A stretch of DNA of 10,263 nt from Methanosarcinaceae archaeon. GTDB lineage: Archaea; Halobacteriota; Methanosarcinia; Methanosarcinales; Methanosarcinaceae. The stretch is from NCBI GenBank assembly GCA_020793555.1, contig DQIO01000253.1, forward strand, positions 1-10,263, in the 5' to 3' direction. The position numbers and the translations under genes are program-made. Position 1 is the first letter of the stretch. Every line of letters begins with the position of its first letter. The notes below the pieces were generated by a model that was given only the letters and a program-made list of their open reading frames with translations, did not search any database and had not been told where the DNA came from. Positions 1-10,263 of the stretch are shown in pieces.

Positions 1-117
1 CTCTTCAACCATCAAATTGACCTTGCTATTCGTTTTATCCTTCACAAGAGCAAGAGGACTTAATTTAGGATATAAATAGTTAGGGACTAAGATTTGAAAT
101 CCGTGACAAAGGCACAT
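1..117 (-). CDS. possible partial ORF leaving the left edge
   Basis: On the minus strand the frame is open from a stop at 151-153 to the window edge, with an ATG at 115-117. The visible 39 residues begin MCLCHGFQILVPNYLYPK and read plausibly as protein, but I recognise no family. No ribosome binding site is visible before the ATG, and the stretch upstream overlaps a HEPN remnant on the other strand. It may be the start of a gene continuing to the left, the end of a decayed one, or chance. Confidence 0.2.
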   Translation of the reverse strand, partial: MCLCHGFQILVPNYLYPKLSPLALVKDKTNSKVNLMVEE

Positions 118-144
118 GGTGCTGGTTTTGTTGGAAAAATATAG

Positions 145-387
145 CGATTTCTAGTTATCTTTGAAACTCAAGTTAAAGACATAACAGTCGAGAAAACACA
201 CGATCTTACAAAGATCAACAATGCGTGCATAAGTGTTGATTCTGAATTTGAAGAACTATCGGATGCAGCAGAAATTCTATCTGGTTATACCGTTGAAGTC
301 CGGTATCCCTGCGCTTTTTATGAATATTCGATCGAAGAAGCAAGAGAAGCCGTTGAAAAAGCGAAAATGTTCAAGGTCTTGTACTAA
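145..387 (+). pseudogene. HEPN-domain protein remnant (C-terminal part)
   Basis: Read from 145 the frame encodes the C-terminal half of a HEPN domain: FLV, then KTHDL, then a Cys, an SVDSEFEEL segment, YTVEVRYP, and FYEYSIEEAREAVEKAK before the stop at 385-387. In archaea HEPN proteins of this type usually pair with a minimal nucleotidyltransferase as a toxin-antitoxin module. Upstream, a TAG at 142-144 blocks the frame. A possible EKY of the usual EKYLKAFLV motif sits at 134-142 in another frame, about 4 nt short of normal spacing, which suggests a frameshift. No start codon, N-terminal helices or nucleotidyltransferase partner is recognisable within the window. The domain call rests on motif memory; the pseudogene status rests on the stop and frame break. 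Confidence 0.6.
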
Positions 388-504
388 AAAAAATATCATG
401 AACTTTGCGTCCCTGTCCGCATAGCACAGGATGTCTTGACCCCATATAACCGTGCTACGCGCGTATGGTATCACCGTTTTTATCCTGAACTCGTTAAAAT
501 ATTA
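388..504. other. intergenic debris between HEPN remnant and aksA 3' end
   Basis: About 117 bases follow the HEPN stop. The same + frame reopens after TAA-AAA-AAA and reads YHELCVPVRIAQDVLTPYN and onward into aksA antisense, but I cannot tie it to a family. It could be further remnant coding sequence. No RNA gene or other feature is visible. Confidence 0.3.
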
Positions 505-525
505 TTCATGATCACAGATCATGAA
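505..525 (-). terminator. perfect hairpin over the aksA stop codon
   Basis: The arms ttcatgatc (505-513) and gatcatgaa (517-525) are perfect 9-bp complements around a 3-nt loop and include the aksA TGA at 512-514. In the aksA transcript the hairpin is followed by AATAATATTTTAAC, which is moderately U-rich. This fits a 3'-end or termination element. Archaeal termination depends mainly on U-rich tracts, so the hairpin may rather stabilise the mRNA end. Confidence 0.4.
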
Positions 526-1690
526 GCTTCACATCATGGACCATTTCTTCGAGACGATTTCTTGATATTCCGCGCTTTGCTTCTGTGCAAACTTTAACTT
601 TGTCAATGAGATCGCACAATTCAGTCCTCTCAAGAGTGTAACCCATGTCCTTGAGGATACCTTTTAGTGCCTTGGTTCCTGTGTGTTTGCCTACAACAAG
701 GTTTCGCTCACCTCCAACCATCTCTGGACTGTAAAGTTCGTATGTCCGGGGTTGTTCAAGTATCGCAGCGACGTGTATGCCGGATTCATGCCTGAAAGCA
801 TTCCTGCCCACAACTGCCTTATTGACTGCAGGCAGGACTTTTGAATATTTCACGACCATATTGGACAGGTTAATTAGTTTTGAAACGTCATACCTATCAA
901 TTCCATACTGTAACCGTAATGCAACCAGCACCTCTTCAAGAGCAGCGTTTCCAGCCCTCTCACCTATGCCATTCACTGTGGTGTGAAGCTGTTTTGCGCC
1001 TGCTTCAGCAGCAGCAAGGGTATTTGCTGTTGCCATTCCCAGATCATCGTGGCAATGTATACATATCGGGGTGTGAACAACCTTTTTTATCTCACTCACA
1101 AGATAGGACGTGGTGCTTGGATTAAGGATACCGATCGTATCTGCAATACTTACATAATCCACTTTGTAGTCTTCTGCCATGAGAAATGCTTTTTTGAGCG
1201 TATCGATACTTGTTCGGGTGGCATCCTCAGCCGCAAATCTTACACCTAAACCATGATCTTTCGCGTACTCAATTGCACTGAATGCACACTCTGCCATCTC
1301 CTCACAGCTTCTATGGTACTTGTACCTAAGATGCAAGTCCGACATCGCAATAAAGATACTTACAAAATCAACACCGCAATCAATTGCAGCTTCCACGTCC
1401 CCAATGACCGATCGTGCAAGACAGCATGTCCTTGCATCAAGTCCCATATTGGCTATCTCTTTTACAACATCCTTTTCGGCAGGGGATACTACAGGAAATC
1501 CTGCTTCGATTATTTCAACACCAACAGAATCGAGTTCGCTCGCAAGTGCAACTTTTTCTTCCCTGTTAAAAGCGACACCTGGTGTTTGCTCCCCATCACG
1601 CAATGTCACATCACATATCTCGATGTCAAGCGGCTTTAGATCTAAATAATCCATCAATGTATTTTTTGAGTATTCTGGCAGATTGGACAT
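512..1690 (-). CDS. aksA: homocitrate synthase family protein (AksA-like)
   Basis: This 392-residue protein belongs to the DRE-TIM metallolyase (isopropylmalate/homocitrate/citramalate synthase) family, which condenses acetyl-CoA with a 2-oxo acid. Visible signatures are CDVTLRDGEQTPGV (26-39), the divalent-metal HCHDD (212-216), VNGIGERAGNAALEEV (239-254) and GRNAFRHESGIHVAA (295-309). It lacks the long C-terminal regulatory domain of LeuA, and its length matches the methanogen AksA that extends 2-oxoglutarate through 2-oxoadipate toward 2-oxosuberate for coenzyme B. A CimA or NifV-type role cannot be excluded by motifs alone. The ATG at 1688-1690 is preceded by AGGA with 9-nt spacing; the internal ATG at residue 13 has no such site. 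It is monocistronic or distal to larB (111-bp gap with its own TATA-like box). Confidence 0.9.
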   Translation of the reverse strand: MSNLPEYSKNTLMDYLDLKPLDIEICDVTLRDGEQTPGVAFNREEKVALASELDSVGVEIIEAGFPVVSPAEKDVVKEIANMGLDARTCCLARSVIGDVEAAIDCGVDFVSIFIAMSDLHLRYKYHRSCEEMAECAFSAIEYAKDHGLGVRFAAEDATRTSIDTLKKAFLMAEDYKVDYVSIADTIGILNPSTTSYLVSEIKKVVHTPICIHCHDDLGMATANTLAAAEAGAKQLHTTVNGIGERAGNAALEEVLVALRLQYGIDRYDVSKLINLSNMVVKYSKVLPAVNKAVVGRNAFRHESGIHVAAILEQPRTYELYSPEMVGGERNLVVGKHTGTKALKGILKDMGYTLERTELCDLIDKVKVCTEAKRGISRNRLEEMVHDVKLHDL

Positions 1691-1737
1691 GTTATCGATT
1701 CCTGTCAGTTCGTTAGTCGAGCATAACCATAAAGTTC

Positions 1738-1745
1738 TATATTAA
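1738..1745 (-). promoter_or_regulatory. candidate TATA box for aksA
   Basis: On the minus strand CCCCAAACTTAATATAGAAC contains TTAATATA. A start site about 25 nt downstream (near 1714) would give a leader of roughly 23 nt that includes the AGGA. It lies in the only gap between larB and aksA. The match is moderate. Confidence 0.4.
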
Positions 1746-1801
1746 GTTTGGGGAAAGTAGTCGCAATATTTCAAATGATTATTGAATGTTATTGTGCTCG
1801 C

Positions 1802-2575
1802 TTAACTACGTTGCGCTCCTGCAACCATATTGGCAATCCGCGCCGCAAACGCCCCGGCAACGAACCCCGCATCGATATTGACAACACTAATAACTGAACA
1901 GGATTGCAACATCGACAAAAGCGCAGCCTCACCGCCGCCGCCTGCGCCGTATCCAGTCGATACAGGAACACCGATCACAGGAGCATCTATCAGTCCTGCA
2001 ACAATGGTCGGAAGTGTACCCTCGCGCCCTGCCGCAACCACAACAGCACCAACGCCGTGCTCTTTTAGTTTTGATATCTGTGGCATCAACCTGTGTATCC
2101 CGGCAACACCGACATCATATATTGCAACAACTTCACACCCCATCTCACGCGCCACAACGCGCGCTTCCTCGGCAACACCAACATCAGCCGTACCGGCTGT
2201 CAAAATGCCAACCACTCCGCCGGAACTAGGACGCGGCGCGCCGTTGTGAACAACAGCCGCACGGGCGCGGTCATTCCACTCTATATTATCGGGATCAAAT
2301 GCGCTCCGCACAGCTTCGATCTGCTCGTCAGACACGCGCGTAAGCAGCGCTCTTCCTGCATGTTCCACCTGCATCTTTGTAATATCTACCAGATCGTCAG
2401 GGCGCTTGCCTTCGGCAAGCACCGCTTCCAAAACACCGGTGCGGTGCATTCGGTGCGTATCGATCTTCGCAATCTCCGAAACCGGTGTAAAACCCATGGA
2501 CTTGATCTGCATGGTCGCAGAATCAACATCCAACTGCCCGCTTTTTAATTTTAATAAAATATCTTCCAATTCCAT
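1802..2575 (-). CDS. larB: LarB, pyridinium-3,5-biscarboxylate mononucleotide synthase
   Basis: LarB, a PurE-related enzyme, carboxylates and hydrolyses nicotinate adenine dinucleotide in the first step of nickel-pincer nucleotide cofactor synthesis; LarE and LarC act later and are not in this window. The 257 residues match the family size. The N-terminal helical part (1-110) is followed by the PurE-like core: GILTAGTADVGVAEEA (123-138), YDVGVAGIHRL (153-163), VVVAAGREGTLPTIVAGL (178-195), GVPVSTGYG (202-210) and SCSVISVVNIDAGF (225-238). Cys226 aligns with the cysteine reported to attack the pyridinium ring in Lactobacillus LarB. The ATG lies 6 nt after the stop of a nadK remnant; no clear ribosome binding site is seen there. 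The gene is visibly more G+C-rich than its neighbours. It was probably once co-transcribed with nadK. Confidence 0.9.
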   Translation of the reverse strand: MELEDILLKLKSGQLDVDSATMQIKSMGFTPVSEIAKIDTHRMHRTGVLEAVLAEGKRPDDLVDITKMQVEHAGRALLTRVSDEQIEAVRSAFDPDNIEWNDRARAAVVHNGAPRPSSGGVVGILTAGTADVGVAEEARVVAREMGCEVVAIYDVGVAGIHRLMPQISKLKEHGVGAVVVAAGREGTLPTIVAGLIDAPVIGVPVSTGYGAGGGGEAALLSMLQSCSVISVVNIDAGFVAGAFAARIANMVAGAQRS

Positions 2576-2581
2576 GATAAA

Positions 2582-2713
2582 CTACGCCAATTTGCTTTGA
2601 ACCTTATTGTAGAATCCGCTGATCGTTGTCCTCACAAAACGTGCAGGATGTTTCAACTTTGTCAACGTAATAACATCGTGTTCACTGATAGTATAATTGT
2701 GTTATCCATCAAT
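2582..2713 (-). pseudogene. duplicated 3' fragment of NAD kinase gene
   Basis: This 132-bp stretch aligns without gaps to the last 132 bp of the intact nadK (5640-5771) with about 10 mismatches. It would encode IDG, a stop, then HNYTISEHDVITLTKLKHPARF and on to FYNKVQSKLA. The Gln codon after IDG has become TAA, so even this fragment is broken. Its terminal TAG (2582-2584) lies 6 nt before the larB ATG, which suggests the ancestral order nadK-larB. The fragment ends exactly at the left terminus of the 2.6-kb insertion. Confidence 0.85.
2707..2713. repeat. left target-site duplication
   Basis: catcaat (or ccatcaat from 2706) directly before the left terminal inverted repeat is repeated at 5332-5338 (or from 5331) directly after the right one. 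The intact nadK has a single ccatcaat at the homologous place (5764-5771), so the second copy is a real duplication of target sequence. Confidence 0.7.
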
Positions 2714-2780
2714 GGGCCTTGTGTATAAAGTATATCCTGTGTATAAAGTCGGGATATGTTACGATTTTTAAAACAAAGCC
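2714..2780 (+). repeat. left copy of MITE-like repeat
   Basis: This 67-bp stretch aligns without gaps to 5264-5330, with about 52 of 67 positions identical; the first 38 bases match at 34. Its outer arm is intact, while its inner arm (ttttaaaacaaagcc) is degraded, so only the outer end still forms a good terminal repeat. The inner flank (attaagac) does not repeat outside, consistent with the two copies moving together with what lies between. Confidence 0.65.
2723..2730 (-). promoter_or_regulatory. outward-facing TATA-like box in the element's left end
   Basis: Reading the minus strand toward larB, the terminal repeat contains ACTTTATACAC, a good match to an archaeal TATA box. A start site about 25 nt downstream (near 2700) would place larB on a leader of about 125 nt running through the nadK fragment. 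Since the insertion cut larB off from its old upstream genes, this box is a reasonable candidate for its present promoter. This is inference from sequence only. Confidence 0.3.
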
Positions 2781-3172
2781 ATTAAGACATGCCTTCAACG
2801 ACCTCGGATTTCGCTTCGCAAAATCCGGGGCATCAAGGAGGATGCTTAGTAATCCCCTTTCCCATTGTTTTGTTTGATATTGCGTTACCTTTAAGGTGCA
2901 GGAATCTTATTTTATATAAGTTCTAATATGATATATTCAAATGTAATTTCTAAATTAATAATCTGACAAAAAAGTATTAATGTAATTGAAAATAATAACA
3001 GCAAATCATATATACAAAAAAATATAAAAAATTAAGTTCCTTTAATAGCGTATACTATGTTGTTTTATTATTTTATCCAAAATAAGATATATGTGATTAA
3101 ATAAAAATGCTAATTTGAAAAGGTTGATATATTAAGTTTAAGGTGAAGAATGCTTATAATAGGATTGAGTCA
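2781..3172. other. A+T-rich region upstream of the cargo gene
   Basis: No credible gene lies here. It starts with a G+C-rich hairpin (2802-2830) and becomes extremely A+T-rich after about 2900. Several TATA-like strings (for example ttttatataag near 2910 and catatatac near 3007) could serve the cargo gene, but in such composition none stands out. Confidence 0.5.
2802..2830. repeat. stable hairpin inside the element
   Basis: CCTCGGATTTCGC (2802-2814) pairs with GCAAAATCCGGGG (2818-2830) around a 3-nt loop, with one mismatch and one G-T wobble on the + strand. No U-tract follows on the + strand, so an intrinsic terminator is unlikely. It may be a structural element of the mobile unit or a genomic repeat. 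Confidence 0.5.
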
Positions 3173-5155
3173 ATGAAAATATTACCAATAAACATTGATG
3201 ATTTAATATTTGCCCGATCTATGGAATCAGTCAGGCGAGAATTTAAAAAAACATGGTCTGAACCTATTTTAGAAAATGTAATCCATACCATTTGTGCTTT
3301 TGCAAATGATTTTTTTAATTTAAATGGTGGGTATATCATTTTGGGTATTGAAGAAAAGAATGGACAACCAATTCTTCCCCCTTATGGATTAGAAGACCAG
3401 AACTTAGACGAAATTCAGAAAAAAATACGAGGTAATTGCAAAAGAATAGATCCAGAATATCAACCAGTAATTTCACCGGAAATTTATATGGAAAAACAAA
3501 TTCTTGTAATATGGGTTCCAGGCGGAGAATTACGACCTTATCAGGCTCCAGTAAAACTTAAAGACGGTACTCGTGCTTACTATGTTCGTCAGGGAAGTGA
3601 GTCAGTTCAAGCAAAAGGAGAAATTTTAACACAGCTAATGCAAATGACTGCAAAAGTTCCTTTTGATGATCGACGTAACAATTCAATTCCAGTCGATGTT
3701 ATATCATCATCCATCGTAAGGAAGTATCTTACTGACATTCGGAGTGATTTAGTCGCCGAAAATATGCTTATTCCAGATAGGGATTTGTATCGTTATATGA
3801 AGATTGTTTCGCCTTTGAATAGTCATGAAGCTCCAAGAAATGTTGCATTACTATTTTTCACAGAAAATCCGGATCATTATTTCCCAGTAACTCAGATAGA
3901 AGTCGTTGAATTTGGTGATGATGCCGGTGGAGATCTTATCGAAGAAAAAGTTTTCAAAGGTCCAATTCATTTCCAATTAAGACAAGCACTTGATTATTTA
4001 AACAGTTTCAGTACTTCAATGATTAAAAAGATTCCAGGAAGAGCTGAAGCCCATAAAGCAGTTGCATTTCCATATGAAGCAATGGAAGAAGCTCTTGTGA
4101 ATGCAGTTTATCATAGAAGTTATGAAATTCATGAACCTATCAAAGTATATTTATATCCTGACCGAATGGAAATAATTAGTTATCCAGGACCAGTTCCTGG
4201 TATTGAATTGCAGCATTTACAAGCAGATGGAGTTGTGCCGCCAGTCCAAAGTCGAAATCGAAGAATTGGGGAGTTCCTTAAAGAACTCAATCTTGCAGAA
4301 GGGCGAGGTACAGGAATACCAAAAATCCGAAGGAAAATGAAAGAAAATGGTTCACCAGAGCCGAAATTCGAATTTGATAAAGAGAAAACATATTTCCGTG
4401 TTATTTTGCCTGCACATCCACAATATGTTGTGATTCATTCTTTACGTAATAGTGCCCATCTTTGGGCTACAGGGGATAGAAAAAGCGCCCTTATAAATTT
4501 AGAACAAGCTTTATCGAATGTTCCAGCATCAGGAGCACTTCTAGGTCAACTTATCGAGTATAAAGCTGGTTTGGGGGACTTACCTTCAGCTGAACATATG
4601 TTTAATGAGAATAGAAATAACATTGTATTAATTGATAGACATTTACTTTATCTTGCGATGGCTAGAGCATATTTGAATTCTCAAAAACCATCAAAAGCTT
4701 CATCAATTCTTCAGGAAATTCCTTCTCCGACAACTGGTGATGAATTAATTGAATTAGCAATATTATATAAAAGAGCTAAAAAATATGAAGAAGCACACGC
4801 GGTTTTTGCTTCCAATTATGATATTCTTCGTGAAGACCAGAAAGCCGTACATGAATTTGCACAAACAAAGATGAAATTATCATCAAAAGCGCGAGGACAT
4901 GTCCGAAAACGATTAAACAAAGAAGCTCTTGAACTATTACGTAGAGCTATACAATTATCAGATGACTATATTAGGACTGCTTGGTGTTGGTTTGATCTTG
5001 CAATAACTTTGAATTGGTTGCGTTCCCCTGAGACAGAAATTCTAAGTGCTTATAGTAAAGCTATGGAACTCTTACCTAATGAACCGATATTCAAAGAGAA
5101 TTATGAGAAATGGAGGGCTAACTACGAAAGACGAAGTGGATTTAAAAAAAAATAA
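3173..5155 (+). CDS. AlbA_2/Schlafen-like, GHKL ATPase-like protein with TPR-like C-terminus
   Basis: This is a 660-residue protein from ATG 3173, which has AGGA 8 nt upstream; a GTG at 3143 would add 10 residues but has no suitably spaced site. Positions here count from 3143. An AlbA_2 (Schlafen-type) domain spans about 24-165, with REFKKTWSE (32-40), ICAFANDF (50-57) and NGGYIILGIEEKNG (61-74). A HATPase_c_4-like domain spans about 300-425, with EEALVNAVYHRSYEI (315-329), RMEIISYPGP (341-350), RNRRIG (371-376) and EGRGTGIPKIRRKM (386-399). Proteins with these two domains (COG2865 type) normally end in a winged helix. Here residues 430-655 are instead helical with TPR-like pairs, such as YEEAHAVFASNYDILRED and EALELLRRAIQLS. 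No signal peptide or membrane segment is seen. It is the only gene in the element. A regulatory or defence role is inference; the function is unknown. Confidence 0.85.
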   Translation: MKILPINIDDLIFARSMESVRREFKKTWSEPILENVIHTICAFANDFFNLNGGYIILGIEEKNGQPILPPYGLEDQNLDEIQKKIRGNCKRIDPEYQPVISPEIYMEKQILVIWVPGGELRPYQAPVKLKDGTRAYYVRQGSESVQAKGEILTQLMQMTAKVPFDDRRNNSIPVDVISSSIVRKYLTDIRSDLVAENMLIPDRDLYRYMKIVSPLNSHEAPRNVALLFFTENPDHYFPVTQIEVVEFGDDAGGDLIEEKVFKGPIHFQLRQALDYLNSFSTSMIKKIPGRAEAHKAVAFPYEAMEEALVNAVYHRSYEIHEPIKVYLYPDRMEIISYPGPVPGIELQHLQADGVVPPVQSRNRRIGEFLKELNLAEGRGTGIPKIRRKMKENGSPEPKFEFDKEKTYFRVILPAHPQYVVIHSLRNSAHLWATGDRKSALINLEQALSNVPASGALLGQLIEYKAGLGDLPSAEHMFNENRNNIVLIDRHLLYLAMARAYLNSQKPSKASSILQEIPSPTTGDELIELAILYKRAKKYEEAHAVFASNYDILREDQKAVHEFAQTKMKLSSKARGHVRKRLNKEALELLRRAIQLSDDYIRTAWCWFDLAITLNWLRSPETEILSAYSKAMELLPNEPIFKENYEKWRANYERRSGFKKK

Positions 5156-5263
5156 CCATCCCCGTACTAAATCGTACAAGGTCTTCATCATACTTAAGCA
5201 AACGATTTCTTTCTTTAAGTCCTGAGGTGGTTACCAACCCTTACCCAAATCCCTTAGTGTATA
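5156..5263. other. 3' flank of the cargo gene within the element
   Basis: There is no gene here. Weak inverted repeats are gtac-taaatc-gtac (5164-5177) and acttaag...ctttaagt (5192-5220). The intervening atttctttcttt is pyrimidine-rich on the + strand and could act as the termination region of the cargo gene. Confidence 0.3.
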
Positions 5264-5331
5264 GGGCTTTGTGTACAAAGTACAGCCTGTGTATAAAGTC
5301 GAGGCATAATTCTACTTTATACACAAAGCCC
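5264..5331 (+). repeat. right copy of MITE-like repeat (68 bp, palindromic ends)
   Basis: The left arm GGGCTTTGTGTACAAAGTA (5264-5282) and the right arm TACTTTATACACAAAGCCC (5313-5331) are inverted repeats differing at one base in 19. The middle contains a third gtgtataaagt. This intact copy shows what the degraded left copy (2714-2780) once looked like. The coding capacity is nil. Confidence 0.75.
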
Positions 5332-5395
5332 CATCAATGACAATAACAACTTCATTTAAAGTATATTGAAGCGCCTTACCACTCAGGCCATTTGC
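5331..5395 (-). pseudogene. diverged NAD kinase fragment right of the element
   Basis: On the minus strand this reads ANGLSGKALQYTLNEVVIVI followed by DG, aligning without gaps to ANG...EAVIVIDG of the intact NAD kinase (65 bp to 5764-5828; 11 of 22 residues, about 38 of 65 bases). It ends at the same IDG codon where the left fragment resumes, so together they form an interrupted NAD kinase 3' end. A TGA lies three codons upstream of ANG, after which hicB begins. It is far more diverged than the left fragment (about 92% identical), so the two halves may have different histories. Confidence 0.5.
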
Positions 5396-5424
5396 ACCGC
5401 ATCAAAAAAAGTAAGGACTATGTA

Positions 5425-5619
5425 TTATGCGAATAATTTCGATTCGGGGATGAACTGATTATCCTCAATCAATCCCTGCACATGCAATTCTATGGCTTCA
5501 TGCATATTCCGCTCTATTTCTTCACGGGTAACTCCCGTAGCAACACAGCCTGATAAATACGGTGAATACGCCGAATAATTATTGTTTGCTTTCTCGATTA
5601 CAACAAGAAAACGACACAT
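5425..5619 (-). CDS. solo HicB-like antitoxin family protein
   Basis: This 64-residue protein has the HicB N-terminal fold pattern: FLVVIEKANNNYSAYSPYLSGCVATG followed by TREEIERNMHEAIELHVQGL and an acidic PES tail. HicB antitoxins normally neutralise the adjacent HicA RNase, but no HicA ORF lies on either side, and there is no C-terminal DNA-binding extension. The ATG (5617-5619) has GGAG 8 nt upstream and lies 20 nt after the nadK stop, so it is probably co-transcribed with nadK. Such orphan short HicB proteins are common in archaea, and their partners are mostly unknown. Confidence 0.8.
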   Translation of the reverse strand: MCRFLVVIEKANNNYSAYSPYLSGCVATGVTREEIERNMHEAIELHVQGLIEDNQFIPESKLFA

Positions 5620-5639
5620 ATCTATTTCTCCATTTTCAA

Positions 5640-6482
5640 CTACGCCAGTTTACTTTGAACCTTCTTATAGAACCCGCTGATCGTTGTCCTCACAAAACGT
5701 GCAGGATGTTCTGCCTTTGTCAACGTAATAACATCGTGTTCACTGATAGTATAATTGTGTTGTCCATCAATCACAATGACCGCTTCCTTTTCAGGATTCG
5801 TCAGCTCAACCTTGATGGAACCGTTTGCAGGAACAACCCATGGTCGCGATGATAACTTGAACGGTGCCAAAGGCACGATCAGTGCAGCATCAACACGCGG
5901 GTCGATGATAGGCCCGCCTGCACTCATAGCATAGGCAGTTGAACCCGTAGGGGTTGCAAATACTACACCATCCGCGCGTAGTTCCTCAAGTTCACATTCA
6001 TCCACACTGATCTTGTACGTAAGTATCTTCGCAGGTTTAGCCGTGATTATAACCACTTCATTGGTAGCGGATGGAAGCACCTCGCCGTTCAATGAAACTG
6101 CCAATCTTAGCCGCTCACCATATTTGAAACCGGCCAACACATTTTCAATTGTCTCGATCGCATCTTCAGGATCCACATCCACAAGGAAACCAAGTGTACC
6201 CATATTGATAGCAAGGATTGGAAGTGGATCATACATCTTTGAAATGTTACGAAGCACCGTCCCATCACCGCCAACAGAAATTATGAACTTTACACCATTC
6301 TCTCGCATCTTATTCACAGGCACCACAATGTCGCCTTCAACACCCAATGCCTTGGCTGTCATTGGTGATAGCGCAATATCAACTTTAGATCCAAACTTTT
6401 TCAAAATAGTCTTAACCATCTCAAGAGCATCCACGTGGTCACATCTTGACACAATACCGATCTTGTTTACCAGATTTACCAT
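5640..6482 (-). CDS. nadK: NAD kinase
   Basis: ATP-NAD kinase makes NADP+ from NAD+ in the cytoplasm. In the 280-residue product (counted from ATG 6480-6482) the signatures are SVGGDGTVLRN (69-79), INMGTLGFLVDVD (92-104), the NE of TNEVVI (140-145), TPTGSTAYAMSAGGPI (177-192) and VIVIDGQ near 235-241; this is the usual archaeal length. A TTG directly before the ATG would add one residue, but the ATG has GAGGGGGT upstream, located in the last codons of the preceding phosphatase gene, whose stop is 4 nt away. Tight spacing suggests translational coupling. In Methanocaldococcus the equivalent proteins are fused (NADP phosphatase/NAD kinase). The 3' end exists a second time at 2582-2713. Confidence 0.95.
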   Translation of the reverse strand: MVNLVNKIGIVSRCDHVDALEMVKTILKKFGSKVDIALSPMTAKALGVEGDIVVPVNKMRENGVKFIISVGGDGTVLRNISKMYDPLPILAINMGTLGFLVDVDPEDAIETIENVLAGFKYGERLRLAVSLNGEVLPSATNEVVIITAKPAKILTYKISVDECELEELRADGVVFATPTGSTAYAMSAGGPIIDPRVDAALIVPLAPFKLSSRPWVVPANGSIKVELTNPEKEAVIVIDGQHNYTISEHDVITLTKAEHPARFVRTTISGFYKKVQSKLA

Positions 6483-6486
6483 CAAA

Positions 6487-7302
6487 TTACCCCCTCGAAT
6501 TCAAATTCAAAAGATCCATGTGGGCATGTCCATTTGATGCAACCATATCCACACGATTCATAAGACCATTGGGCAGCTTAAGCGGGTCACCAAGTTCATT
6601 GGAAACCATCCCTCCTGCCTTTTCAAGTATAAAGTTCCCTGCCGCAACATCGGTTAGCCGCAAAGCCCTGCGAACGTCAACAAATGCATCCATCCTGCCG
6701 GATGCAACATAACATAATTCCAGCGCCACACTGCCAAGTATCCTTATCCTTCGAACCCCTTTGCATAATATAGACGTTCGTTCAACATGAGGACGATAAC
6801 CATATGCACTTATACAAAAATCATGAATATCCGAATTATCAGATGGGCTTATCGGCTTGCCATTCAAGTATGCACCCTTGCCGGACCCTGCATGATATGT
6901 ATCCCCATTTGCAAGATTCGTTACGTAGCCAAATGAAACGTCGGATAGGTCAGGTTTTGCTATAGCAATGGATACACTGTAGAATGGAATGCCAAAAGCC
7001 GCATTGTATGTCCCGTCAAGAGGGTCAAGTATAATAGAGACTTCAGGTTCATCCCCCTCCCCCTCCCCGATCATTATATCCCCTGCCTCTTCGCTGAGGA
7101 GCCGCATCGACCTGCCGTAATCCTTCAAAACCGTGAGTATTGCATCTTCCGCAGCCGCATCGATCTTCTTTGTTGGGGTTCCGTCAGCCCCCATATAAAC
7201 AGTGCTGTAGGCATCACTGCTACCTACCATGTCTTCAATAGCATCTGCTGCAGCCTGCGATGCGCGGTTGCATAATTCCAAAAGATCATGATCGGATGCC
7301 AT
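6487..7302 (-). CDS. suhB: inositol monophosphatase/fructose-1,6-bisphosphatase family phosphatase
   Basis: This 271-residue Mg2+-dependent, Li+-sensitive phosphatase-family protein has the metal-site motifs of the superfamily: EEAG (71-74), DPLDGT (93-98) and LTDVAAG (216-222, with Asp218), plus PTKKID (43-48). Archaeal members act on inositol-1-phosphate and fructose-1,6-bisphosphate, and some on NADP+. Because nadK follows 4 nt downstream, and the two activities are one polypeptide in Methanocaldococcus, an NADP phosphatase role is a serious alternative to the usual bifunctional IMPase/FBPase label. The ATG at 7300-7302 has no obvious ribosome binding site, only the A+T-rich TTATAATTT before it. 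Confidence 0.85.
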   Translation of the reverse strand: MASDHDLLELCNRASQAAADAIEDMVGSSDAYSTVYMGADGTPTKKIDAAAEDAILTVLKDYGRSMRLLSEEAGDIMIGEGEGDEPEVSIILDPLDGTYNAAFGIPFYSVSIAIAKPDLSDVSFGYVTNLANGDTYHAGSGKGAYLNGKPISPSDNSDIHDFCISAYGYRPHVERTSILCKGVRRIRILGSVALELCYVASGRMDAFVDVRRALRLTDVAAGNFILEKAGGMVSNELGDPLKLPNGLMNRVDMVASNGHAHMDLLNLNSRG

Positions 7303-7320
7303 AAATTATAAGAAAATAAT

Positions 7321-7344
7321 AATGTAAATGTAAATGTAAATGTA
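7321..7344. repeat. hexanucleotide tandem repeat, 4 x AATGTA
   Basis: Four perfect AATGTA units lie in the 64-bp gap between gap and the phosphatase gene. On the minus strand they read TACATT repeats preceded by ATTGTTTTTCATC, so the whole gap is pyrimidine-rich and may hold the gap transcript terminator (7335-7360) and the phosphatase gene promoter. Copy number could vary between strains. Confidence 0.6.
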
Positions 7345-7366
7345 AAGATGAAAAACAATGGGGATA

Positions 7367-8374
7367 TCAAATGCCCATTGCCTTGTTTGTTTTCGCGATA
7401 GACTTTGCACCGTCTGAGTCGATTTCCATCATAGCGCGGATCGCATCCACATTTTCGGGGATCACATCGGATTCCTGATGGATAGCCTGGAAGAAGTACA
7501 ATTCATCTTCATACATAGTAATGGATTCATCCCAGACGCAAGTCTCCCACATGTCACTTCTTGGACGGTCAAGATCCCTTGCAAGTTCCATTATCTCGGC
7601 AGTCGATGTAATTCCCTGCCCGACAAAACGAACTCGTGACTGCTTTGCAAGAACGGCCTCAACCTCTTTTGCCGTGCACTCGTCCCTGAATTCCATATTA
7701 AGGGTATGCATGTGCATCAATGTAGTTGGAAGTTTTACAGCCATTGTCGCAATATCAATATGCGGCAAAATGGTTTTCACATCAGGACCGTGGTGTGATG
7801 GAAGTGTTATTGGATTTGGAATAATCGCATTGATCGGACCATGTTTAATATCTCCGGGGTCGGCTGCCCTTCTAAGGAGCGTCACCCGCACTTTCTTGAT
7901 ACCAAATTCCTTGTCAAGAGGCGAAATTACCCTGCAAAGTCCGGTCGTGTTGCATGAGACAACCCTGACAAAGTCTTTTCCAAGGGATTCACTGTAATTT
8001 GCATCAGCATTGAAAGAACAGTCTGCAAGTTTATGGTCCTCTCCACCTTGCCATATTGCTTTGACTCCTGCTTTTTCATAAAGGGATTTATTCTTCTCTC
8101 CAATACCGCCGGGCGTACAATCAACAACAACATCAGCACTATTGATCATATCATCCACTGTACCGGCTGCTTCTATACCGGCATTTTTGAAATCATTAAC
8201 CCTGTCAGCAAGCGTATAGACATCATACCCTTTATCGTGTGCCATAGCAGCCTCGAAATTAGGTCTTGTCTTTGCAATGCCTACAACTTCCATATCATCC
8301 TGCAGACGAACAGCATCTGCAACCCTCTTACCTATAGTCCCATATCCATTTACTGCAACTTTCACTTTTGCCAT
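7367..8374 (-). CDS. gap: glyceraldehyde-3-phosphate dehydrogenase, archaeal type II
   Basis: The 335-residue archaeal GAPDH oxidises glyceraldehyde-3-phosphate to 1,3-bisphosphoglycerate with NAD(P)+; in methanogens it works mainly in gluconeogenesis. Visible are the Rossmann motif NGYGTIGKR (9-17), DCTPGG (85-90), the catalytic cysteine in VSCNTTGLCR (Cys141), LRRAADPGD (167-175), and PNPIT...HHGPD (187-198) with MHMHTLN (220-226) supplying the catalytic-histidine region. Full length for the family. The ATG is preceded by a strong GGAGGA with about 6 nt spacing (8381-8386 on the + strand as tcctcc). It is separated from cooT by about 180 bp and has its own promoter region. Confidence 0.95.
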   Translation of the reverse strand: MAKVKVAVNGYGTIGKRVADAVRLQDDMEVVGIAKTRPNFEAAMAHDKGYDVYTLADRVNDFKNAGIEAAGTVDDMINSADVVVDCTPGGIGEKNKSLYEKAGVKAIWQGGEDHKLADCSFNADANYSESLGKDFVRVVSCNTTGLCRVISPLDKEFGIKKVRVTLLRRAADPGDIKHGPINAIIPNPITLPSHHGPDVKTILPHIDIATMAVKLPTTLMHMHTLNMEFRDECTAKEVEAVLAKQSRVRFVGQGITSTAEIMELARDLDRPRSDMWETCVWDESITMYEDELYFFQAIHQESDVIPENVDAIRAMMEIDSDGAKSIAKTNKAMGI

Positions 8375-8470
8375 TTAAAGTCCTCCCTATACTCATTTGC
8401 CACAATTATAACTCATTTAGGTTATCAATTTGAATCAATTACATTAATGTTTTGTTAACTGTCAGTTATT

Positions 8471-8479
8471 AATAAATAA
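8471..8479 (-). promoter_or_regulatory. candidate TATA box for gap
   Basis: On the minus strand CTTATTTATTAATAAC offers TTATTTATT. A start near 8448 would give a leader of about 70 nt including the GGAGGA. A second TATA-like string (gttataattg, near 8406-8415) is too close to leave a leader carrying the ribosome site. Confidence 0.3.
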
Positions 8480-8506
8480 GTGTCGATATCGCATCGGCTC
8501 CCGCGA

Positions 8507-8521
8507 AATTATTCAATAATT
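8507..8521. repeat. palindrome AATTATT-C-AATAATT
   Basis: A perfect 7-bp inverted repeat with a 1-nt centre lies between cooT and gap, upstream of the candidate gap TATA box. It may be an operator for gap or the end of the cooT transcript. A+T-only palindromes arise easily by chance. Confidence 0.25.
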
Positions 8522-8554
8522 ATTCTATCCAACACGCACCCCAATACGTTATAT

Positions 8555-8743
8555 TTACTTTTCAATAATTATAGTTTCCCCTTTAGTGAAATCGACTTCC
8601 TTTATCGAACCCGAAATAACTTTTTTGTCCCCGAATATTCCGGTCAGCTCGATCGAATCACCATTAACAATCATTCTTGTCACAGACTCCATAACCACTT
8701 CCCGCTCATCACCACGAACAAGTATAGCATTTAGTTCACACAT
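8555..8743 (-). CDS. cooT: CooT-family nickel-binding protein
   Basis: This 62-residue protein starts MCELNAIL, contains a VVMESVTRMIV segment and ends with a short beta-rich part (IELTGIFGDKKVISG, SIKEVDF, TIIIE). This matches the small CooT family, whose Rhodospirillum member binds Ni2+ through Cys2 and supports maturation of carbon monoxide dehydrogenase; Cys2 is present here. In methanogens with nickel CO dehydrogenase/acetyl-CoA synthase a nickel-handling role is plausible but unproven. The ATG has GGAG about 9 nt upstream. It lies 46 bp after the DUF89 gene and may share its transcript. Confidence 0.75.
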   Translation of the reverse strand: MCELNAILVRGDEREVVMESVTRMIVNGDSIELTGIFGDKKVISGSIKEVDFTKGETIIIEK

Positions 8744-8789
8744 TTTTTATATCTCCACTACTTGGCCATTAAACATTACAGATTGGACA

Positions 8790-9668
8790 TCAAACGTTCA
8801 CTAACTTTGCGACTGAATAGCCCACCTCAAGTCCCATGTCTTTTGCCACACTTTCGCACTTTGTGCGAAGCAAATAAGCGATCGGACCTAAGTTTCTCTC
8901 TGAAAGTGTCTCATAATTTGCCATTCCCTTACTCATGATAAGTGATGCATTCTCAAATGCATCCATAAGTTCTTTGGGAGCCTCAGCAAAACAAACACCA
9001 ATCGCATGTGAACCCGTAGTCAGTACACGATCTACCATTTTATCGATCTCAAACTCACGCACATCATCCATTGTTACATCATTGAGTATTGGAGCACCAC
9101 GAACTACCAAAGTGATATTTCCACCCATCTTTTTGATAATATCAAATACCAGTGTATCAAGCAGTATCTCACCGCAATTGTCAACAATATAGACCACGTC
9201 ATCAAGCATATCGAGCATTTGTGGAGTGTCATCAACATCCAGCCCGTGCCTGAACAGTTCTGTGAAAGTATCATCGAATGCATCAGGCGCAACGTCAAAT
9301 CCCATTACCCCAAAATCAAAATAATTACCTATTACAGATGCGAGTACGGCACGACTGAATATCTCCCCCTCTTCCGGTTCACCTTCATATATCAGCTTCT
9401 TCGCAATAGGCAACACTTCATTTGCAACCTTGTTGCTGATTTGTTTCAGTTTTAGATAGGGATCAACATCACCTAAAACCTCATACGCCTTGCGGTGCAT
9501 TGCCGTTGAAAGATAACCGGCAGGCGTATCAGGTCTGTATTTACGATTTAGTACATCAATTCCTGCCATGACAGTCTTGTGTATCAATTGTTCATCGTCG
9601 GTCGATAATTTTGCTTCGTAGTGTACTCTTGAGAGCATGCAATGTGGACAGCGTGCGTCAATTTTCAT
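8790..9668 (-). CDS. DUF89/ARMT1-like metal-dependent phosphatase
   Basis: This 292-residue protein is of the archaeal DUF89 subgroup. DUF89 proteins are Mn/Ni/Co-dependent phosphatases proposed to remove damaged or excess phosphometabolites. Visible are the N-terminal cysteine pair CPHC (7-10), typical of this subgroup, a helical region to about 150, YIVDNCGEILLD (160-171, with the metal-binding Asp-Asn pair at 163-164), VVRGAPILNDVT (188-199) and LIMSKGMANYETLSE (243-257). I chose the ATG at 9666-9668 because it has GGGA 8 nt upstream and gives the family's usual start MKIDARCPHC. A longer frame to 9761 adds 31 unlikely residues. It is divergent from the right-edge gene. Confidence 0.85.
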   Translation of the reverse strand: MKIDARCPHCMLSRVHYEAKLSTDDEQLIHKTVMAGIDVLNRKYRPDTPAGYLSTAMHRKAYEVLGDVDPYLKLKQISNKVANEVLPIAKKLIYEGEPEEGEIFSRAVLASVIGNYFDFGVMGFDVAPDAFDDTFTELFRHGLDVDDTPQMLDMLDDVVYIVDNCGEILLDTLVFDIIKKMGGNITLVVRGAPILNDVTMDDVREFEIDKMVDRVLTTGSHAIGVCFAEAPKELMDAFENASLIMSKGMANYETLSERNLGPIAYLLRTKCESVAKDMGLEVGYSVAKLVNV

Positions 9669-9799
9669 GTGATTATCCCTTTTGGTCCCCTTTATTGTCA
9701 AGGATACTACAAATGACCGCATGCAAAATAAGTGTAACCTTAGTAAAACCGCAATACACATAGCATATTTTTTATACAGAGTATTTCATTTTACTTCCA
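9669..9799. other. divergent promoter region
   Basis: The 131 bp between the divergent DUF89 and phosphodiesterase genes must hold both promoters. For the minus direction acttattttg (near 9728-9737) is a weak TATA candidate. The plus-direction box is listed separately. No other feature is seen. Confidence 0.4.
9770..9777 (+). promoter_or_regulatory. TATA box for the right-edge gene, probably leaderless
   Basis: TTTTTTATAC is centred about 27 bp before the ATG at 9800, the usual TATA-to-start-site distance in archaea, and no ribosome binding site precedes that ATG. Transcription would therefore begin at or next to the start codon. Confidence 0.45.
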
Positions 9800-10263
9800 A
9801 TGAACCAAAATACATCATATTCCAGCTCCACAAGAATCCTATTATTAACACTGATGTTATTACTATTATTCTCATTTTTACCCATATCAGCCATCGCATC
9901 AACCCTTGTAGAAGTAAATCCCGTAAACACACCGGATGGCGCAGTTATCCTGATTATAGACGGACTTGGTGCCCCATATATCTATCCCGAACTTACCCCT
10001 TACGCAATTGACGGAACTGTACTTGCTAAAGCCGTTGTACACAATATTTCGCAGATCGCGCAAAACAGTGCGCGTGTTGTGGATATCCGCGCGCCCCGGA
10101 CTTACACAGAGGCAGGACATTCTGTCCTTGTAACCGGAAATTCCGGTGCAGATAGTGAAGTAGTCGGACATCCGGGTGCTACCATCTATGACATGGCGCA
10201 CGATAATGGATATCTTGCACTCGCAGTGCTTGAGATGGGAGATTTTTACGAAATGCGTGCCGA
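9800..10263 (+). CDS. secreted alkaline-phosphatase-superfamily phosphodiesterase (partial, 5' part)
   Basis: 154 codons are visible before the window ends. Residues 1-33 form a signal peptide: a Ser/Thr/Asn-rich start with Arg12, a Leu-rich core 13-27, and a likely cleavage near ISAIA-S. The mature part opens the alkaline phosphatase/nucleotide pyrophosphatase fold: VILIIDGLGAPYIYPEL (49-65), where Asp54 fits the first metal ligand, and RTYTEAGHSVLVTGN (100-114). The latter resembles the T-x-x-x-H...L-x-TG nucleophile region of type I phosphodiesterases, making Thr103 the likely nucleophile. Substrate unknown; it should act outside the cytoplasmic membrane. A phosphoglycerate mutase-like cytosolic enzyme is unlikely given the signal peptide. 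Confidence 0.75.
   Translation, partial: MNQNTSYSSSTRILLLTLMLLLLFSFLPISAIASTLVEVNPVNTPDGAVILIIDGLGAPYIYPELTPYAIDGTVLAKAVVHNISQIAQNSARVVDIRAPRTYTEAGHSVLVTGNSGADSEVVGHPGATIYDMAHDNGYLALAVLEMGDFYEMRA

Follow-up and report, generated by a model that had tools for sequence, protein, structure and literature searches.

Mobile insertion cassettes, as outlined in parts of PMC3129680 and PMC5444012, are non-autonomous derivatives of insertion sequences in which inverted repeats enclose a coding gene and no transposase, and which a cognate transposase may activate; one of them, MIC231, is named in the reference list of PMC6542083. Here we describe an element of this kind in a stretch of 10,263 nucleotides from a Methanosarcinaceae archaeon (the window: assembly GCA_020793555.1, contig DQIO01000253.1, positions 1 to 10,263 of the forward strand). 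The unit (Table 1) is very probably a non-autonomous transposon of the mobile insertion cassette type and belongs to a family characterised by GGCTTTGTGTAnAAAGT ends and target duplications of 9 bp; judged from the sequences at hand, it is probably mobilised in trans. We directly observed its ends and its duplication, further copies that carry different cargo, empty sites, and a relative in which such ends enclose a transposase. The element is known in kind, and what is new is the breadth of the cargo, the partner enzyme and the differences between elements at the same site.

The features shared with mobile insertion cassettes are the terminal inverted repeats, a constant 9-bp duplication, coding cargo without a transposase and a cognate transposase in one relative. 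In contrast to them, one end family is here combined with many unrelated cargos in a single genome, and the interiors at the same site differ between species. Prokaryotic miniature inverted-repeat transposable elements (MITEs), in what portions of PMC10969869 say of them, are likewise ends without a transposase, and short copies with duplications occur here as well, but 15 of 18 copies of the present family carry open frames of at least 70 amino acids. A preliminary description of the window, made from the letters alone, had called the unit a cargo-carrying MITE; this label fits poorly and was rejected because of size and cargo, as copies reach 5.7 kb and carry genes. The main text of the MITE review PMC10969869 contains neither the term "passenger" nor the term "mobile insertion cassette". 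No description of this element family was found among the top-ranked papers of our literature searches, and no paper was found that joins a SWIM zinc finger with a transposase and an insertion sequence. Tn7 itself duplicates 5 bp of its target. Tn7-like transposons with defence cargo, as presented in parts of PMC8649781, also have variable cargo, defence genes included, between transposon ends; the present units, with one to few genes and a 9-bp duplication, were set apart from them without a search for Tn7 genes.

In what follows, genomes are labelled G, fetched loci L, families f and genera g; G000 is the host assembly, and LE and RE are the left and right end of an element. The element of the window is flanked by an exact 9-bp repeat, CCATCAATG (9/9 identical), which the preliminary description had recognised and measured as 7-8 bp. 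The coordinates given there, 2714..5331, were right to one base, the boundary moving by one base on each side to 2715-5330, and the 19-bp terminal inverted repeats with one mismatch are indeed present (2714-2732 against 5313-5331, 95% complementary). A 67-bp palindrome-like unit that holds TGTGTATAAAGTC repeats is found at both ends in direct orientation (copies 78% identical), so that the end as a whole is more complex than its terminal inverted repeat. Folded as a single strand, the RE copy forms a strong hairpin (Table 1), the LE copy does not (z -1.3), and the folding of the 76-bp inner RE stretch is not notable (z -0.13); an Rfam scan of 2600-5450 matched nothing up to E 1. At the LE, homology to the element at the same site in G183 extends 132 bp inward. 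The sole large gene was correctly read as a Schlafen-like, ATPase and TPR protein (SLFN_AlbA_2, HATPase_c_4 and TPR lie inside the unit), and the absence of a transposase gene stands as well, since tblastn with the transposase from locus L144, described below, matches nothing in the element.

The ends recur widely. The host assembly (2.56 Mb, 334 contigs, 92.7% complete), when searched with the DNA of the element, returned 26 places, namely the element itself and 25 end pieces, and the terminal 19-mer at up to three mismatches gave 31 matches against one for a reversed-pattern control. The RE is present in 31 of the 185 genomes of the order; an 18-mer at up to two mismatches is found in 109 of the 185, though genus g1 and G076 are the main places where it stands out from its control. 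We compared 15 stretches of the host genome and stretches of relatives, 69 loci in all, and paired their ends at a spacing of 60-9000 bp and with at most four summed mismatches. The 77 pairs obtained comprise 7 with exact 9-bp duplications, 3 with 8/9, 4 with 7/9 and 63 with at most 6, many of the last joining ends that are not true partners. When the right flank was displaced as a control, 7906 comparisons gave no exact duplication, one at 8/9 and 22 at 7/9. In total, 18 elements have a duplication of at least 7/9, and nine of these are exact (the 7 among the 77 pairs, together with L258 and L259); the 18 exclude L257:11084-12920 (8/9, its left end having 3 mismatches), a pair of 48 bp nested within L143 and repeat copies of loci already counted. 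Thus the ends suspected to occur elsewhere in the genome and in relatives, and with other cargo between them, were found on both counts, at spacings of 0.09-5.7 kb. Phage and plasmid collections searched with the RE yielded no match, and the exact 18-bp tips were not found in viral contigs.

The cargo is diverse. Fifteen of the 18 elements contain open frames of at least 70 amino acids, and the remaining three (86, 355 and 386 bp) have none above 62; the duplications of these short copies match at 7 to 9 of 9 positions. In a Pfam scan that covered part of the frames, defence, restriction or toxin-antitoxin-type genes passed the cut-offs in 7 of the 15 frame-bearing elements: SLFN_AlbA in the window, SIR2_2 in L010, N6_Mtase in L023, a HicB-like gene in L160 (scanned via an identical copy in L009), GmrSD_N with HEPN in L156, HicA and HicB in L143, and AAA_15 in L145. 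PADLOC, applied to ten cargo proteins, gave strong matches for four of these seven elements (SIR2/ThsA, type I/IIG methylase, NsnA/PD-T4-2_A and NsnB) and none for the cargo of L011, L259 and L261. Pfam gave no match for the 207-amino-acid protein of L258, for L259 (624 amino acids), for L149 and for the first frame of L151. One HicB-like gene is common to L009:735-956 and L143:1350-1571 (65/73 amino acids, 91% of the DNA), in elements of two families and beside different partner genes.

The transposase gene with the same ends that the preliminary description had proposed to look for was found in one relative. Locus L144 of genome G046 is a 5.3-kb element with an exact duplication, and it encodes an intact 417-amino-acid SWIM and DDE_Tnp_1 protein (PF01609 at 1.9e-20, PF04434 at 3.2e-6); tblastn with it at 0.01 matched none of the other 17 of the 18 elements. 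The putative partner transposase is IS5-like only, since the curated IS5 model was not passed. The IS5 family is approached by the DDE_Tnp_1 domain and by the best NCBIfam model, which is an IS5 one; the SWIM zinc finger, a score below the IS5 cut-off and ends with several repeats are unlike that family. The tip and the 9-bp duplication length presumably resemble those of IS903-like members of IS5. Remnants of the C-terminus of the transposase reach an end in L155 (G120) and lie 69 bp off an end in L207 (G003); in the genus of the window, G182 (L206/L268) has a remnant 1.1 kb from an end, 78% identical over 59 amino acids. In viral contigs, a 48%-identical transposase stands between perfect 18-bp inverted tips (GGCTTTGCCTCATAAATG; GGCTTTG). 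Genomes of g14 have transposase remnants beside tips that read GGCTTTGCACCTAAAGT, where a left end or duplication was not found, and in L209 and L210 of this genus the segment from a similar transposase remnant to a similar right end holds different genes (an AAA_15 ATPase and an HNH protein), directly before a gene that we take to resemble trpC. We propose that a SWIM zinc-finger DDE_Tnp_1 transposase would bind the repeated TGTGTATAAAGTC motifs of the LE and RE, cut at the GGC/GCC tips and insert the unit together with any gene between them.

Several observations weigh against this picture of a family mobilised in trans. L144 holds the only intact transposase seen between these ends, and the score of its best NCBIfam model, 123.6 bits, is under the cut-off of 140. 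A transposase of this type has no match in the host assembly (92.7% complete, 334 contigs), and around the 10 PF01609/DDE_Tnp_1 matches of the host genome no such end was found at up to three mismatches. The viral copy is without a target duplication, and many ends of the host genome have neither partner nor duplication. Apart from these objections, the protein search with the L144 transposase scored 7998 candidates (7964 at E 0.001) and gave matches in 106 of the order's 185 genomes, in many cases to distant DDE_Tnp_1 relatives. No shared ends were found at the distant intact transposases L164-L166, and PF13737 had no match in the host genome, nor in control genomes. The N-terminal SWIM matches of f5 (L195-L204, L212) were rejected as another kind of transposase; L203, scanned whole, proved to be DDE_Tnp_IS240, and paired ends were not found.

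The insertion site of the element (site A) lies next to the NAD kinase gene. The preliminary description had placed the unit inside an NAD kinase-like frame; NAD-kinase-like sequence does flank it on both sides, but the functional gene is unbroken and intact at 5640-6485. The empty site that had been suggested was found in two relatives, G180 and G184, where the AIRC-domain gene lies 6 bp from the NAD kinase gene and no duplication, element or HicB-like gene is present. In G000 and G183, these two genes stand apart: between them lie a 132-bp duplicate of the NAD kinase end and the element, then a diverged stretch of NAD-kinase-like sequence and a HicB-like gene. In G179, the copied NAD kinase end and the LE lie beside the AIRC-domain gene, and an RE was not found in the 7 kb examined; G181 and G182 gave no match in the NAD kinase site search.

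When ends were grouped into orthologous sites by their 300-bp outer flanks, seven comparisons had interior sequence on both sides: three at site A (the SLFN gene in G000, GmrSD and HEPN in G183, GNAT and a 64-amino-acid frame beside the LE in G179), one each at sites B and C (G000-G183 in both), one at site D (G182-G183) and one at site F (G183-G182). The flank and 72-132 bp of the LE align in all seven, and 177-198 bp of the RE align where visible. No interior DNA could be aligned between partners in any of the seven, all matches considered, and blastp at 1e-4 found no cargo proteins common to same-site partners. The idea of a non-autonomous element with a captured gene is supported by our data; such a difference in cargo between species at one site had not been foreseen by the preliminary description. 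At site E and in further cases at B, D and F, the interior is missing on one side, or the element is inverted (D in G179). The sole shared cargo found is a two-element composite in G000 and G179, 99.9% identical over 1939 bp, whose flanks differ from the tip outward. In this composite (L009:1-1947 and L160) two elements are placed around a fragment of NAD kinase and a HicB-like gene, and the 9-mer TGACTTAAA adjoins it on the left in G179 and on the right in G000; it reflects either a recent movement or a single molecule binned twice.

How could elements at one site come to differ so completely inside? After placement, the LE (about 72-132 bp) and RE (about 177-198 bp) modules shared by same-site elements may recombine, so that interiors are swapped while ends and site stay. 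We put forward only tentatively that the end modules act as such an exchange platform, by which recombination of LE and RE would swap interiors across species, and even families, with no new insertion. In-place exchange of cargo is suggested because one right end is mosaic: at site A of G183, 5/5 inner diagnostic columns are of the other-site type and 2/2 tip columns of the site-A type. Accordingly, the tip of this RE is 97-99% identical to its same-site partners, and the inner part is 87-88% identical to them and up to 96% identical to elements of other sites. The data support exchange at site A and are compatible with it at site C, while site B gives no support. Several points count against exchange, and we rate it lower because five of the seven comparisons show just the LE for one of the two elements, owing to a contig end, split contigs or an RE that was not found (this concerns G179 at A; G183 at C, whose RE lies on a separate contig, and at D; and G182 at F), the neighbouring genes there being cargo by position only; both ends are visible in both genomes in two (G000-G183 at sites A and B). 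The mosaic is based on 7 columns in one end, compared with 8 chosen other-site REs; for G179 the reference used was not the NAD kinase contig but the composite C74, whose right flank is the same. At site C, inner part and tip are 96-97% identical to the partner, with the tip equally close to another site, and at site B tip and inner module are closer to other sites than to each other.

One would argue that the sites are simply hot spots that took up a separate element in each species, always at the same base. This main rival to exchange, which we regard as rather doubtful, draws on site B, where tip lengths differ (67 against 87) and tips are 88% identical under 96% flank identity, on the element of G179 at the same position of site D in opposite orientation, and on duplications several of which contain CATC or CCAT (noted without statistics), so that some target preference is possible. 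However, duplications at different sites have no full motif in common, tip and flank follow the site and the inner RE does not, and the derived structure of the NAD kinase site (duplicated end, diverged stretch and HicB-like gene) is common to G000 and G183 despite different cargo, its left part being found also in G179. An artefact of assembly or binning, with short-read assemblers linking ends and cargo that belong to different elements, would be suspected from the fragmented assemblies of the genus (70 to 334 contigs), from end modules about 84-97% alike and from the composite contigs of G000 and G179 that could be one molecule. Mis-assembly is nevertheless quite unlikely, because exact matches between compared ends of one genome are short (the longest does not exceed 49 bp in 48 of the 49 pairs and is 75 bp in one, from G000), and because in g14, where G155 is a single contig, a similar transposase remnant and a right end with flank of similar sequence enclose different genes, albeit with no left end or duplication found.

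Two further explanations concern the nature of the units themselves. Transposase remnants in several loci and many decayed ends could be taken as signs of ordinary insertion sequences that decay beside host genes without functional cargo carriage. This is very improbable, as the cargo lies within ends with exact duplications and differs between elements, the cargo of the window is under purifying selection and absent from both empty NAD kinase sites, and gene-poor copies of 86-386 bp exist alongside those with cargo. Archaeal integrons, as parts of PMC9668308 describe them, also exchange gene cassettes between conserved sites, and the 66-bp palindromes might accordingly be sites of a tyrosine recombinase: the palindrome-like unit is direct at both ends, the RE tip folds strongly as a single strand and the cargo varies. 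Against this stand the 9-bp target duplications, the DDE transposase between such ends and the gene-poor single copies; an integron identity is hardly credible and was rejected on the duplications and the DDE partner, without a search for an integrase or attC sites. The non-autonomous transposon remains our preferred identity for the unit.

As for where the cargo gene came from, its best match over the full length within the order is in G009, a member of another family, with 91% protein identity; 114 of the 185 genomes match in this search at all, mostly distantly. The named archaeal relatives of the cargo protein point to Methanosarcinales as the order of the host. The DNA of G009 is 88.7% identical over 2188 aligned columns covering window positions 2967-5149, and the homology ends at the last codons, in an A-run, while the gene of the window has its stop codon in the RE module. 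In G009 (L297:4309-8090) the homologue has no such ends and is flanked by two copies of a further gene, which agree at 95% over 300 bp; by reading rather than by domain scan, this appears to be a flavoprotein gene. Paired ends were found around none of the 18 cargo-gene relatives tested, of 20 returned. The occurrence of the cargo gene without ends elsewhere, in other lineages, fits capture. The cargo would thus derive from a G009-like locus and would have been joined to the RE module in the A-run. The ratio of nonsynonymous to synonymous substitution rates (dN/dS) is 0.07 against L095, with dS saturated for L094 and L096; on sequence evidence, the gene is intact, maintained and under purifying selection. 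Among defence models, the protein matches the front part of the pAgo model (2.9e-23) and two weaker Argonaute-associated models, and by sequence its relatives in the structure archive are 2kyy and 3lmm. From its SLFN_AlbA and ATPase domains, it is probably a defence or conflict gene.

Table 1. Positions of the element, its end modules, its cargo and the neighbouring genes in the window.
Feature	Position	Strand	Remark
Element, 2616 bp	2715..5330	.	GGC...GCC inverted tips
Target duplication CCATCAATG, 9 bp, left copy	2706..2714	.	
Target duplication CCATCAATG, 9 bp, right copy	5331..5339	.	
LE module: palindrome-like tip of 66 bp with TGTGTATAAAGTC repeats, followed by inner LE	2715..2846	+	
RE inner module, 74 bp	5151..5224	+	the cargo gene has its stop codon here
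RE tip: palindrome of 66 bp that forms a hairpin	5265..5330	+	DNA fold of 5264-5331, z -5.4
Cargo gene, SLFN_AlbA_2, HATPase_c_4 and TPR	3173..5155	+	660 amino acids from ATG 3173; open frame from GTG 3143
Probable captured segment	2967..5149	+	cargo gene and about 206 bp upstream; stops at last codons
Duplicated 3' end of NAD kinase gene, left flank	2580..2714	-	
Diverged NAD-kinase-like stretch, right flank	5331..5396	-	ANGLSGKALQYTLNEVVIVID on minus strand
HicB-like antitoxin gene between element and NAD kinase gene	5425..5619	-	absent from both empty sites
Intact NAD kinase gene	5640..6485	-	Pfam
AIRC-domain (larB-like) gene, other neighbour of the site	1802..2575	-	

Some repeats were seen outside complete elements. 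The inner 74-bp RE module (AATAACTATCCCYGTACTnAATAGTACAGGG...) was found without ends in nine loci of other genomes (L076, L077, L078, L081, L083, L085, L086, L088 and L089), eight of them in family f3, and in two of these loci it precedes genes that we assume to be thiC-like. An amplified form of the end motif is the 148-bp unit L159:7724-7871, with end repeats spaced 20 bp, six on one strand. Around 1986-2057 of L009 lies another dispersed repeat of the genus, which accounts for about 45 of the 52 matches of one search, over seven genomes.

How archaea acquire and swap defence genes is an open question that this family addresses. Paired GGCTTTGTGTAnAAAGT ends delimit the cargo and give a direct route to captured genes, including proteins without a Pfam match such as the 624-amino-acid one of L259. 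The family also makes it testable whether cargo turns over at fixed sites by recombination of the ends or by repeated insertion. If exchange proves true, fixed sites would cycle through defence and toxin-antitoxin genes, as an integrase-free analogue of cassette exchange.

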